From: Citrifermentans bremense
Lineage (GTDB): Bacteria > Desulfobacterota > Desulfuromonadia > Geobacterales > Geobacteraceae
DNA length: 64,000 nt
NCBI RefSeq assembly: GCF_014218275.1
Contig: NZ_AP023213.1
Location: 3,662,501-3,726,500, forward strand
Direction of reading: 5' to 3'
Position 1 is the first letter of the stretch, and the number at the start of each line of letters is the position of its first letter. Below are positions 30,416 to 60,810 of this stretch, in pieces. The notes beneath the pieces were generated by a model. The model searched no databases. It was not told where the DNA came from and was given only the letters and a program-made list of their open reading frames with translations. A program made the position numbers and the translations under genes.

Positions 30416-34564
<4,149 letters not shown>

Positions 34565-34614
34565 AGTATATTCCTCCTTAGCAGTAGGAGTTACGTAATC
34601 AGTTGAGAGCGTTC

Positions 34615-34673
34615 CGTCCGACAGTCGGACCAGTCGGACCTGTCAGACTTGTCCGACCTGTCCGACGTCCGAC
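34615..34673. repeat. 9-base repeat array in the rpoB-rpoC gap
   Basis: On the minus (message) strand units of 9 follow the rpoB stop: GTCGGACAG, then GTCGGACAA, GTCTGACAG, GTCCGACTG and GTCCGACTG, plus partial copies at each end. The first units (GTCGGAC) are the reverse complement of the last (GTCCGAC), so the RNA can fold into a hairpin. It begins 4 bases past the stop. The unit matches the array at 58992. Confidence 0.85.
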
Positions 34674-34677
34674 CACC

Positions 34678-38793
<4,116 letters not shown>

Positions 38794-51390: not shown

Positions 51391-51436
51391 ATCCGCCTCT
51401 ATCCGTTCCATCCGTTCCATCCGTTTAATCCGCGTG
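51391..51436. repeat. 9-base repeats after asd2 (ATCCGTTCC type)
   Basis: ATCCG begins at 51391, 51401, 51410, 51419 and 51428; the last four are in exact 9-base phase (ATCCGTTCC twice, ATCCGTTTA, ATCCGCGTG). It lies just past the asd2 stop. Neighbouring sequence (51325-51383) shares GGCCAC...AAAATCTGA with the hairpin at 47137-47189, so a dispersed intergenic element may be present. Confidence 0.75.
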
Positions 51437-56848: not shown

Positions 56849-58978
56849 ATGCGAAGTCAATCGGAGAAGAGAGCGGCACGGGAGATAGGAAAGATCGTCG
56901 GGATCTACGCGCTCTTCGGCAGCGCCTGGATCTACCTCTCCGGGTATGCCCTCACCTGGCTGGTATCCGACCCGCAGCTGGCATACCGGATTGAGGTCTA
57001 CAAGGGGCTCCTCTTCATCTTGGTCACCTCCTGGCTTTTGTACCGGCTGATCACCCGCTTCGCCAAGCGCCTGGCCGAAAGCGTGGAAAAGCTGGAGGAA
57101 AGCGAGGCGCGCTTCCAGGCCATCTACCATAACGTGAACGACGCCCTGCTGATTCATGAGCCCGACGGCCGGGTAACCGACGTGAACCGCACCATGTGCA
57201 GCATGTTCGGCTACAGCAGGAACGAGGCCCTGCAACTGAGCGTAGGCGAGCTAAGCCAGGGGGAGCCGCCTTACTCGCATCAAGAGGCGCGACACCTGCT
57301 CACGCTCGCGGCGCAAGGGGTCCCGCAGACGGTCCAGTGGCACAGCAGGAAGAAGAACGGGACCTTGTTCTGGTCCGAGGTCAGCCTGCGCCGGGCCATC
57401 ATCAACGACGAGGAGCGCATCGTCGTCATGGTGCGGGACATCACCTCCCGCAAGGAGGTCGAGGAGGCGCTCAGGCAAAACGAGGAAATCCTCAAGCTGC
57501 TGATGGAGGAGATGCCGGCGGGGGTGGGGTGGTCGGACGAAGGGAAGGGGATCCAGTACCTGAACGGCCTGATCAGCGAGTGGCTCGGCCTGGCCCGCTC
57601 CGACAAGCCGACCCTCGACGGGCTGCTTGAGCGTGCCCTGCCCGACCCGGAGTACCGAGCCGGGATCCAAAGGCTATGGTACGCCGGCATCCGCGCGACC
57701 CTGGAACACGGCACCCCCATCCCCCCTATCGAGGTAAAACTCACCTGCAGCGACGGCTCGATCAAGCACGTCATCCTCAACACCAGCCTGATCCACCACC
57801 GCATACTCTTCATCTTCACCGACATCACCAAGTGGGAAGCCGTGCAAGCCGAGATCCTGAAGGCGCAGAAGCTGGAATCGCTGGGGATTCTTGCCGGCGG
57901 GATAGCCCACGATTTCAACAACATCCTCACCGGCATCCTCGGGAACATCTCTTTTGCGGGGCTTCTTTTGGAAGGCGACCACCCGGCGCGCGGGCCCCTG
58001 GGGCACGCGGAAAAGGCGTCCCAGCGGGCGGCGGAACTCGCGCACCAGCTGCTCACCTTCTCCCGGGGAGGAGAGCCGGTGAAGAAGGTGGTTTCCGCGG
58101 CGCACCTGGTTCGGGAATCGCTCGCCCTGTCGCTGCACGGGTCGAAGGTGCAGACCGAGGTGGAGATCCCTGAGTCGCTGCACGCCATAGACGCGGACGA
58201 AGGGCAGATGAGCCAGTCCTTCAACAACGTGATCATCAACGCCTGCCAGGCCATGCCGGAGGGCGGGGTCTTGAAAGTGACAGCGGAAAACGTCTCATTG
58301 AAGGCGGAAAACGAGCTGGGGCTTGCCGCGGGAGAGTACGTCAGGATCTCGTTCATCGACGAGGGGTGCGGCATACCGTTCGAGGACCAGAAGAAGATCT
58401 TCGACCCCTATTACACCACCAAGGCAGGCGGAACCGGGCTGGGGCTCGCGTCGGTGCACTCCATAGTATCCAGGCACGCGGGGAAGATCGAGGTCGTGAG
58501 CGCGCCCGGGAAGGGAACCAATTTCACCTTCTACCTCCCCTCGGCGGGAGAGGTCGTCCCCGAGCAGGGAAAGGACCCTGAAAAGCCGTGTCGCGGGGAG
58601 TCCGGCGAAGGTCCCATCCTGGTCATGGATGACGAGGAAGCGATCAGGACTCTGGCCGAGGACCTGCTGACCCACCTCGGTTACGAAGCAGTCACCTGCA
58701 GTACGGGAGAGGAGGCGGTCCGGCTCTACCGCGAAGCAAGCGAGGCGGGGCGCCCCTTCTATGCGGCCATAATGGATCTGACGGTGCCGGCGGGAATGGG
58801 GGGGAAGGAAGCCGCACGGGAGATTCTCTCCTTCGCCCCGAAGGCCCGGCTCGTCGTCTCCAGCGGGTACTCCAACGATCCGGTCATGTCGCGCTATGCC
58901 GATTACGGTTTTTGTTGCGCCGTGGTGAAGCCGTACCGGTGGGCGGACCTGCAGCAGGCGTTAAAAAAGAAGTGCTAG
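56849..58978 (+). CDS. membrane hybrid sensor histidine kinase (PAS-PAS-HK-REC)
   Basis: Signal-transducing kinase with its own receiver. Two transmembrane helices at ~12-68 bracket a short periplasmic loop. PAS domain 1 at ~80-200 (YHNVNDALLIHEPDGRVTDV); PAS 2 at ~210-330. Phosphorylated His in GGIAHDFNNILTGILGNISF (~352); ATPase part with NNVIINACQAMPEGG and GTGLGLASVHSIVSRHAGK (~535). C-terminal receiver from ~588 (LVMDDEEAI acidic pocket, IMDLTVPAGMGG phospho-Asp, VVKPY Lys). 709 residues, 27 bases after glgC. No output partner adjoins. Confidence 0.93.
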   Translation: MRSQSEKRAAREIGKIVGIYALFGSAWIYLSGYALTWLVSDPQLAYRIEVYKGLLFILVTSWLLYRLITRFAKRLAESVEKLEESEARFQAIYHNVNDALLIHEPDGRVTDVNRTMCSMFGYSRNEALQLSVGELSQGEPPYSHQEARHLLTLAAQGVPQTVQWHSRKKNGTLFWSEVSLRRAIINDEERIVVMVRDITSRKEVEEALRQNEEILKLLMEEMPAGVGWSDEGKGIQYLNGLISEWLGLARSDKPTLDGLLERALPDPEYRAGIQRLWYAGIRATLEHGTPIPPIEVKLTCSDGSIKHVILNTSLIHHRILFIFTDITKWEAVQAEILKAQKLESLGILAGGIAHDFNNILTGILGNISFAGLLLEGDHPARGPLGHAEKASQRAAELAHQLLTFSRGGEPVKKVVSAAHLVRESLALSLHGSKVQTEVEIPESLHAIDADEGQMSQSFNNVIINACQAMPEGGVLKVTAENVSLKAENELGLAAGEYVRISFIDEGCGIPFEDQKKIFDPYYTTKAGGTGLGLASVHSIVSRHAGKIEVVSAPGKGTNFTFYLPSAGEVVPEQGKDPEKPCRGESGEGPILVMDDEEAIRTLAEDLLTHLGYEAVTCSTGEEAVRLYREASEAGRPFYAAIMDLTVPAGMGGKEAAREILSFAPKARLVVSSGYSNDPVMSRYADYGFCCAVVKPYRWADLQQALKKKC

Positions 58979-58991
58979 CAGCGACGCCAGT

Positions 58992-59021
58992 ACCTGTCCG
59001 ACCTGTCCGACCTGTCCGACC
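58992..59021. repeat. 9-base repeats between converging genes (ACCTGTCCG type)
   Basis: ACCTGTCCG occurs three times in exact phase from 58992, plus a partial fourth copy. On the minus strand it reads GTCGGACAG, the same unit as in the rpoB-rpoC gap, and begins 1 base after the ATPase stop (59023). It is 13 bases past the kinase stop on the other side. Confidence 0.85.
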
Positions 59022-59022
59022 A

Positions 59023-60810
59023 TCACCCGGTGACCGCGATCACCTCTTCGTAGGTGGAGATTCCCTCCAGCATCTTGCGCACGGCCTGCTCCCTCAGCGT
59101 GACCAGGCCATCGCGGCGGGCGACTGCCTGCAACTCGGCTAGGTCCAGCCGCTCCGAGATGACCCCCTTCACCGCATCGTTCACGTCCAGCACCTCGAAG
59201 ATCCCGGTCCTACCCTTGTAGCCGGTGCCGCGGCACTCTGGACACCCCTCGCCGGACCAGACGACTCCGGCCCGCTTGAGTCCCAGGTATTCGAGTTCTT
59301 CGGGGGCAAGCCGGCGCTCCTTCTTGCAGGCAGGGCAGATCTTGCGCAAAAGCCTCTGCGCGATGATGCCGACGACAGTGGAGGAGATGAGAAAGGGGGG
59401 GACTCCCAGGTCGATGAGCCTGGTGACGGAGGAGGGAGCGTCGTTGGTGTGCAGGGTGGAGAGCACCAGGTGCCCGGTCAGCGCCGCCTGCACCGCGTTC
59501 TCGGCGGTCTCCTTGTCCCGGATCTCACCGATCATGATGATGTCGGGGTCCTGCCTAAGGACGTTTCTCAGCACCTTGTCGAAGGTGACCCCGATCCCCG
59601 ACTGGACCCCCACCTGGTTGAACTCCTCCATCACCATCTCGATCGGGTCTTCCACGGTAACTATGTTCACCTCGGGGGAGGAGAGGGTCCGCAGCGACGA
59701 GTAGAGCGTGGTGGTCTTGCCGCTGCCGGTTGGGCCTGTCACCAGGATGATGCCGTTTGGCCTGCGCAAAAAGGAGCTGTAGAGCTGGTACTCGCGCGGG
59801 TAGAAACCTATCTGGTCGAGCTCCTGCATCAAGACGTCCGGGTCGAAGATCCTGATGACCACCTTCTCGCCGAAGGCTACCGGGAGCGTGGAGACGCGCA
59901 GCTCGACCTCCTTCTCCTGGTGGCTGGTCTTGATCCGGCCGTCCTGCGGGCGCCTCTTCTCGGCCAGGTCCATGCGGGAGAGCATCTTGATGCGCGAGAC
60001 GATGGGGGGGTGAAGCTGCTTGGGAACCACGTGGACGTTGTGCAGCACCCCGTCCACCCTGAGCCGCACCAGGCTTTTCTCCCTCTTGGGCTCGATATGG
60101 ATGTCGCTGGCGCGCTGGTCGAAGGCGTACTGCAACAGGAAATCGACGGCTGAGATGATGTTGCGGTCGGTCCCCTCGATCTCGTGCCCGGTCTTAAGGC
60201 GCACGAACTGCTCGAGGTTCCCCAGGTCCACCCCGGCCGAGACCTCGCTCTCCGCGGCCTGCACGGAGGCGCGGAAGCCGAAGAACTCCCTGAGTATCTT
60301 CAGGATGTCGTTTCTTGAGGCGAGGACCCGGCGGAACTCCATCCGCTTGATGGATTTGAGTTCCTCGACAACCTCCTCGTTGAAGGGGTCGGCTACCGCC
60401 AGCACCACCACGCCGTCCTCGTAACCCACCGGGACGATCAGGTGCTTCAAGGCGAAGGGGCGCGAGATGTGCGCCGTGACCAGCTCGAGATCGAGCTTCA
60501 TCGGGTTGATCTTGAGGTAGGGAAGCCCGACGGCCTGCGCCAGCACCTCGGTGATGGCGTCCTCGGTCAGAAGTTTCCCTCCCCCCCCCGGAATCTCCAG
60601 GTTGAAGGAGGCGATCACCTCGGCGGGAGAGGCCTTTTCCGGCGCATGCAGCACCCGGCGCGAGTACCCTGCCTGCTGCGCCCCGGCCAGCCGCTGGGCC
60701 TGCGCCTCACCCTGGGCGAGCAGCGCCCGGAACTGCTCGTCGGTGATCATCTGGCGCTGCAGGAGTATCTGCCCGACGTTCTGGATGGTGAACATCTTCT
60801 TCCTGTGCAT
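59023..60810 (-). CDS. PilB/GspE-type secretion ATPase
   Basis: Hexameric ATPase for type IV pilus or type II secretion assembly. N-terminal MshEN/GspE_N-like domains at ~1-180; ATPase core with Walker A VTGPTGSGKTTTLYSSLR (~345), Asp box PIEMVMEEFNQVGVQSGIGV, Walker B DPDIIMIGEIRD, and His box HTNDAPSSVTRL. A tetra-Cys zinc site near the end (CPACKK, CPECRGTGYKG). 595 residues. No pilin, platform or secretin gene adjoins, so the system it serves is unclear. A second ATG 5 codons in is possible. Confidence 0.92.
   Translation of the reverse strand: MHRKKMFTIQNVGQILLQRQMITDEQFRALLAQGEAQAQRLAGAQQAGYSRRVLHAPEKASPAEVIASFNLEIPGGGGKLLTEDAITEVLAQAVGLPYLKINPMKLDLELVTAHISRPFALKHLIVPVGYEDGVVVLAVADPFNEEVVEELKSIKRMEFRRVLASRNDILKILREFFGFRASVQAAESEVSAGVDLGNLEQFVRLKTGHEIEGTDRNIISAVDFLLQYAFDQRASDIHIEPKREKSLVRLRVDGVLHNVHVVPKQLHPPIVSRIKMLSRMDLAEKRRPQDGRIKTSHQEKEVELRVSTLPVAFGEKVVIRIFDPDVLMQELDQIGFYPREYQLYSSFLRRPNGIILVTGPTGSGKTTTLYSSLRTLSSPEVNIVTVEDPIEMVMEEFNQVGVQSGIGVTFDKVLRNVLRQDPDIIMIGEIRDKETAENAVQAALTGHLVLSTLHTNDAPSSVTRLIDLGVPPFLISSTVVGIIAQRLLRKICPACKKERRLAPEELEYLGLKRAGVVWSGEGCPECRGTGYKGRTGIFEVLDVNDAVKGVISERLDLAELQAVARRDGLVTLREQAVRKMLEGISTYEEVIAVTG

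Follow-up and report, generated by a model that had tools for sequence, protein, structure and literature searches.

Within a 64,000-nucleotide stretch of the Citrifermentans bremense genome (contig NZ_AP023213.1, positions 3,662,501 to 3,726,500 of the forward strand; hereafter the window), the spacer between rpoB and rpoC contains a tandem array of the heptamer GTCNGAC, and a second array of the same unit lies between two convergent genes. In the sense of the mRNA, array 1 begins 4 nt past the rpoB stop and ends 51 nt short of the rpoC start codon, a TTG at 34562-34564. A first-pass annotation of the window had noticed at least five 9-base units directly after the rpoB stop. We confirm the tandem repeat and count seven heptamers, starting on the plus strand at 34616, 34624, 34633, 34642, 34651, 34660 and 34667, with start-to-start spacings of 8, 9, 9, 9, 9 and 7 and a last base at 34673; Tandem Repeats Finder (TRF) places the array at 34616-34674 with a period of 9. 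The annotation had also reported the unit 1 nt past the stop of a secretion ATPase gene. The unit is indeed present there, as three identical GTCCGAC copies with CT spacers (array 2), but its distance from that stop is 2 nt; the stop of the histidine kinase gene on the opposite side is 17 nt away.

Table 1 Arrays, spacer and flanking genes, in window coordinates
Feature	Position	Strand	Evidence
GTCNGAC array 1, seven heptamers, rpoB-rpoC spacer	34616..34673	.	motif scan, TRF, shuffles
Entire rpoB-rpoC spacer, predicted hairpin on mRNA strand	34565..34677	-	folding
rpoB, upstream operon gene	34678..38793	-	Pfam Rpb2 domains
rpoC, downstream operon gene, TTG start	30416..34564	-	Pfam Rpb1 domains
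Array 2, three identical units, between convergent genes	58996..59020	.	motif scan, TRF, shuffles
PilB/GspE-type ATPase gene	59023..60810	-	T2SSE and MshEN domains
PAS hybrid sensor histidine kinase gene	56849..58978	+	

Fixed and free positions of the repeat unit

The repeat unit is 9 bp long, GTC-N-GAC-NN, and is written GTCNGACNN. Early and later units of array 1 had been described as reverse complements of each other; this holds only in the sense that they are centre-base variants of one heptamer, because GTC-N-GAC is palindromic around its centre base and "inverted" units differ at that base alone. The three-unit pattern GTCNGACNNGTCNGACNNGTCNGAC has four matches in the window, compared with none in 100 dinucleotide shuffles. 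Another exact 9-bp tandem repeat in the window, at 51401-51425 (ATCCGTTCC, 2.8 copies), is unrelated in sequence to GTCNGAC.

Substitutions within arrays separate the unit sharply into fixed and free positions. In 77 units of Prevotella ihumii, the base changes per position are G 2, T 0, C 1, N 44, G 3, A 1, C 4, N 48 and N 45, and 83 units from a sample of the genus give the same pattern less sharply (9, 9, 4, 35, 2, 6, 11, 35 and 40). The seeds for this tally were exact 9-mer duplications, which are blind to the variable position, and changes were counted in the neighbouring units; the seeds had to contain GTCNGAC, so the tally speaks to variable positions within the family rather than to the existence of other families. 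A scan of 2,240 palindromic tandem designs against 804 kb of flanks from other phyla, in which the known arrays had been masked, found a single recurrent design, GTC-1-GAC-2, which also appears in its shifted reading GAC-2-GTC-1. The period is nearly strict: in P. ihumii, units are spaced by 9 bp in 331 cases, by 10 bp in three and by 7 bp in one.

The centre base also has a polarity, with a purine first and a pyrimidine last more often than the reverse (38:0 in P. ihumii, 33:10 in other phyla and 11:4 in the genus). In operon-type gaps of P. ihumii, the sense strand has about as many G-U pairs (9) as A-C mismatches (11). This polarity is thus no evidence of selection at the RNA level, and selection on the RNA strand in P. 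ihumii was rejected.

Dispersal among genomes, spacers and reading frames

The first-pass annotation predicted copies of the unit elsewhere in the genome, and these exist: the C. bremense genome (one contig, 4,458,493 bp) has 12 array loci. Over the full 4.46 Mb, GTCNGACNNGTCNGAC is found in 41 places, compared with one for the reversed pattern of equal composition, the control in our genome counts. Three of the loci lie within open reading frames (ORFs), for example in a CheA-like kinase (domains Hpt, H-kinase_dim, HATPase and CheW), where the array falls in the linker, and in a DUF11/SdrD-like protein. The remaining nine are intergenic, except the one at 4068712, which could not be placed.

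A three-unit array occurs in 17 of 19 genomes of the genus (C. bremense included), with up to 129 matches and 0-1 for the reversed control. The distribution within the genus is patchy, with 0, 0 and 1 matches in G008, G015 and G010 as against 129 in G011, and it is patchy in the phylum as a whole (13 of 394 genomes). A scan of genome contigs for four tandem units returned at least 114 stretches, and the matches listed include Lentisphaerae, Verrucomicrobia, Bacteroidales, Hydrogenedentes, Sumerlaeota, Deltaproteobacteria and Chloroflexi. Whole-genome counts against the reversed control reach 927 versus 5 in P. ihumii, 828 versus 0 in a Verrucomicrobia metagenome-assembled genome (MAG), 221 and 255 versus 0 in Prevotellaceae/Bacteroidaceae and 160 versus 0 in a Chloroflexi MAG. 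Apart from the first two of these, the counted genomes range from 11 to 255 versus 0, with Streptomyces at 2; the few matches in Streptomyces may lie in coding sequence. Four-unit arrays are also present in 69 stretches of viral contigs (L329-L397).

With gene boundaries drawn by a simple gene caller of our own rather than taken from annotation, 31 of 54 arrays in the genus lie between co-directional genes, 7 between convergent and none between divergent genes, 13 are inside ORFs and 3 are unplaced, so that 38 of the 54 are in spacers. The preference for gene 3' ends proposed in the first-pass annotation is unsupported. In addition to those inside ORFs, arrays of the congeners sit in mid-spacer, with median distances of 24 nt to the stop of the gene before them and 28 nt to the start of the gene that follows. 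The array-bearing gaps of P. ihumii divide into tandem, convergent and divergent classes (26/10/10) much as the background does (261/76/79). Of the window's 51 gaps, three are divergent, and these account for 28% of its spacer length; the deficit of divergent arrays in the congeners (0 of 38) therefore depends on the null, being marked by length and weak by count.

The 13 ORF arrays are translated as SDx (8), GxT (4) or VGx (1). All three frames are used, and codon positions that are free under the genetic code are still fixed, which places the constraint on the DNA and not on the encoded peptide. A protein-coding repeat was accordingly ruled out: one DNA consensus is kept in three frames, and most arrays are non-coding. 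One gene, ..arlagkl-[SDx]n-rseffdepll.., carries an in-frame array linker of 10, 11, 4 and 5 units in G000, G011, G003 and G014 (arrays L271, L289, L296 and L067), a naturally length-variable linker in four species.

Spacer turnover and predicted folding

Four spacers with arrays in C. bremense, A to D, were compared among congeners; as they were picked for these arrays, their frequencies are no estimate for all spacers. Spacer A (ABC ATPase-permease) holds GTCNGAC arrays in six species (C. bremense included), GTTCAAC/GTTGAAC heptamer hairpins in four and GTTCTAC heptamers in two, and is reduced to 4 nt in G017 and 8 nt in G016, both repeat-free. Spacer B, from hypD to the next gene, has GTCNGAC in 14 of 18 genomes, a heptamer hairpin in G015 and no repeat in G016. 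Spacer C contains GTCNGAC, AGATTA repeats or nothing, depending on the species. Spacer D, between convergent genes, contains either GTCNGAC or CCCTCTCCC palindromes or is free of repeats; a terminator distinct from them lies downstream in most species and persists in most congeners without the array. GTCNGAC thus trades places with unrelated hairpin repeat families in the same spacers of sister species. At spacers A and B and in the SDx-linker gene, relatives carry different numbers of units.

The heptamer hairpins (GTTCAAC/GTTGAAC and GTTCTAC/GTAGAAC) that occupy spacer A in place of the nonamer array of C. bremense are those of G002, G005, G006, G018, G012 and G013 (loci L488, L493, L446, L492, L483 and L485). 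The heptamer seed GTTGAACGTTGAACG has 15 matches in the entire G006 genome, a rarity that makes its chance occurrence in spacer A there unlikely.

The rpoB-rpoC array can fold as an RNA hairpin, as the first-pass annotation proposed: the spacer has a predicted minimum free energy of -44.9 kcal/mol (z -2.7). In ten aligned congeneric orthologues, 95.5% of the pair cells of the stem are paired, compared with 8-43% when the stem is slid, and the stem shows one compensatory pair (UA in five, GC in three) and several G-U replacements. The ten orthologues are closely related, and this conservation is therefore supportive and not proof. Among 23 rpoB-rpoC spacers of the bacterial family, 17 fold well below shuffles (z -2.6 to -7.7), whereas in six, including all three sampled from one genus, the folding signal is slight or absent (z -1.5 to 0.4). 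The predicted hairpin is thus common across that family but not universal. The spacer sequence differs by lineage and consists of GTCNGAC arrays, heptamer palindromes, GATCGGTCG units, TATAGGTCC units or CCCTCCC...GGGAGGG. Rfam covariance models gave no match to 34300-35000 at E up to 1. An intrinsic terminator was also considered and rejected: no T run follows the array, and transcription is expected to pass through it into rpoC.

Origin of the arrays and related repeats

Our preferred reading, held with moderate confidence, is that the arrays belong to a dispersed, fast-turnover, hairpin-forming family of short tandem repeats, (GTC-N-GAC-NN)n, quasi-palindromic and under sequence-specific constraint. 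Such arrays would expand, contract, come and go rapidly where extra DNA is tolerated, namely in transcribed spacers of operons, in gaps between convergent genes and in flexible protein linkers that keep the frame. The self-complementarity of the unit about its centre base allows any array to fold back on itself, and suitably unlike units within an array would yield near-perfect stems. Arrays may grow through slippage with fold-back intermediates and may be retained because a hairpin in a spacer is tolerated and at times put to use, while a sequence-specific factor or process would hold GTC and GAC fixed in unrelated phyla. The likely consequence at rpoB-rpoC would be a predicted mRNA hairpin between the two cistrons. 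Part of the first-pass suggestion of a mobile or slippage-generated element survives here, in that presence and absence among congeners and the homogeneous arrays fit gain and loss with slippage; no transposase could be linked to the arrays.

Several observations weigh against this reading. Slippage alone fails to account for the fixity of six bases and the saturation of three, or for the common GTC/GAC across phyla, and no seed, donor or enzyme for the arrays was found. Seeding from enriched isolated sites was rejected, the enrichment of lone GTCNGAC sites being weak or absent (observed/expected 1.26 in P. ihumii and 0.44 in the genus sample). Many homogeneous arrays fold weakly, with z near 0, and centre-base pairs in the genus show no excess of matches (8, compared with 8.2 when shuffled). 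The differences between congeners may reflect array gain or array loss. In P. ihumii, many arrays form the centre of a long repeated palindrome, TTAAACCCAAATCGGTCGTTAGACCA ... TGGTCTAACGACCGATTTGGGTTTAA (L249-L268, L309-L328); being embedded in this way, they are possibly not independent of each other, and the carrier of the arrays may differ in this species.

The arrays could instead be functional RNA hairpins for mRNA processing or stability, for example setting the expression of rpoC relative to that of rpoB. The strong folding of most rpoB-rpoC spacers although their palindromic repeats differ by lineage, and the compensatory and G-U changes in the stem of the ten orthologues, point in this direction, but the six spacers with little or no folding signal, the balance of G-U pairs and A-C mismatches in P. 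ihumii and the shrinkage of orthologous spacers at another locus to 4 nt do not, and we consider the explanation possible but doubtful. We are similarly hesitant about the arrays being maintained as binding sites, with a sequence-specific nuclease or DNA-binding protein recognising GTC-N-GAC every 9 bp. The fixed and saturated bases, the 9-bp phasing, the palindromic, dimer-like site and the single DNA consensus regardless of the translated frame would all suit such a protein; however, no candidate was identified, single sites are not enriched and the arrays are patchy even in the genus. A wider form of this idea, in which a horizontally patchy factor, be it a DNA-binding protein, a nuclease or a polymerase, recognises GTC-N-GAC in steps of 9 bp and makes or maintains the arrays in those genomes that possess it, is offered tentatively, as a proposal that probably does not hold; if true, one system would lie behind the nonamer arrays of Bacteroidota, Verrucomicrobiota, Chloroflexota and the window's own phylum.

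Ordinary slippage minisatellites, free of sequence-specific constraint and alike among loci by coincidence, would account for the several long, homogeneous arrays, such as the one with eight identical units at genome position 4294981. We regard this as very unlikely, since six bases are fixed alike in unrelated loci and phyla, the free positions are saturated and the reversed pattern, although equal in composition, hardly occurs; the 2,240-design scan and the per-position tally contradict it. It is still less likely that the arrays are palindromes of the repetitive extragenic palindromic (REP)/REPIN kind mobilised by a REP-associated tyrosine transposase (RAYT, Y1). They are palindromic, intergenic and many-copy, and those of P. 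ihumii are often within longer repeated palindromes, but no match to Y1_Tnp was found in P. ihumii, rich as it is in arrays, or in the Victivallis and Hydrogenedens genomes that carry them, whereas the array-free congeners G008 and G015 have two to three. The C. bremense genome itself has three. The presence of Y1_Tnp does not track the arrays, which contradicts RAYT mobilisation as a general mechanism or requirement.

The family provides a handle on the function of spacer repeats, with its precise pattern of fixed and free bases, its near-strict period, copy-rich genomes and congeners without copies. Unrelated hairpin repeats swap in orthologous spacers, the rpoBC operon included, and the search for the agent that fixes GTC/GAC becomes a defined comparative experiment. 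The repeat is apparently undescribed: literature searches by sequence and keyword found no account of GTC-N-GAC-NN, and the lone exact-sequence match was an unrelated paper on mouse brain.

The best-supported assignment is to the same broad kind as the short tandemly repeated repetitive (STRR) sequences, the TAACTGA repeats and the tandem heptamers of the SPADE survey. Dispersed short tandem repeats are characterised by 6-9-bp units scattered over numerous unrelated loci of a genome, and we find 12 loci here and hundreds of matches in P. ihumii. Cyanobacterial STRR heptamers likewise form dispersed, short tandem intergenic arrays, but with 7-bp units of another sequence that are not known to follow the GTC-N-GAC design. 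The TAACTGA direct repeats, heptamers of Beggiatoaceae, Cyanobacteria and Bacteroidetes, share the short tandem units, the many mostly intergenic sites, the patchy spread over distant phyla, the length changes in unit steps and the empty spacers in relatives (PMC4679880), whereas GTC-N-GAC-NN is 9 bp long, has a palindromic core and leaves three positions free. In the SPADE survey of 7,006 prokaryotic genomes, tandem heptamers were the most abundant intergenic periodic repeats, their function being left open (PMC6344855); heptamer hairpins occupy the same spacers as our nonamer arrays, but the periods differ, 7 in SPADE and 9 here. The GGGACCG elements of Geobacter metallireducens, four tandem heptanucleotides at 49 sites within and between genes (PMC2700814), are also short tandem units at many such sites, but have another 7-bp sequence described in one genome. 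REP/REPIN sequences with RAYT (PMC3116915) resemble the arrays as intergenic palindromes in many copies; they are not tandem nonamers, and the RAYT family is absent from array-rich genomes.
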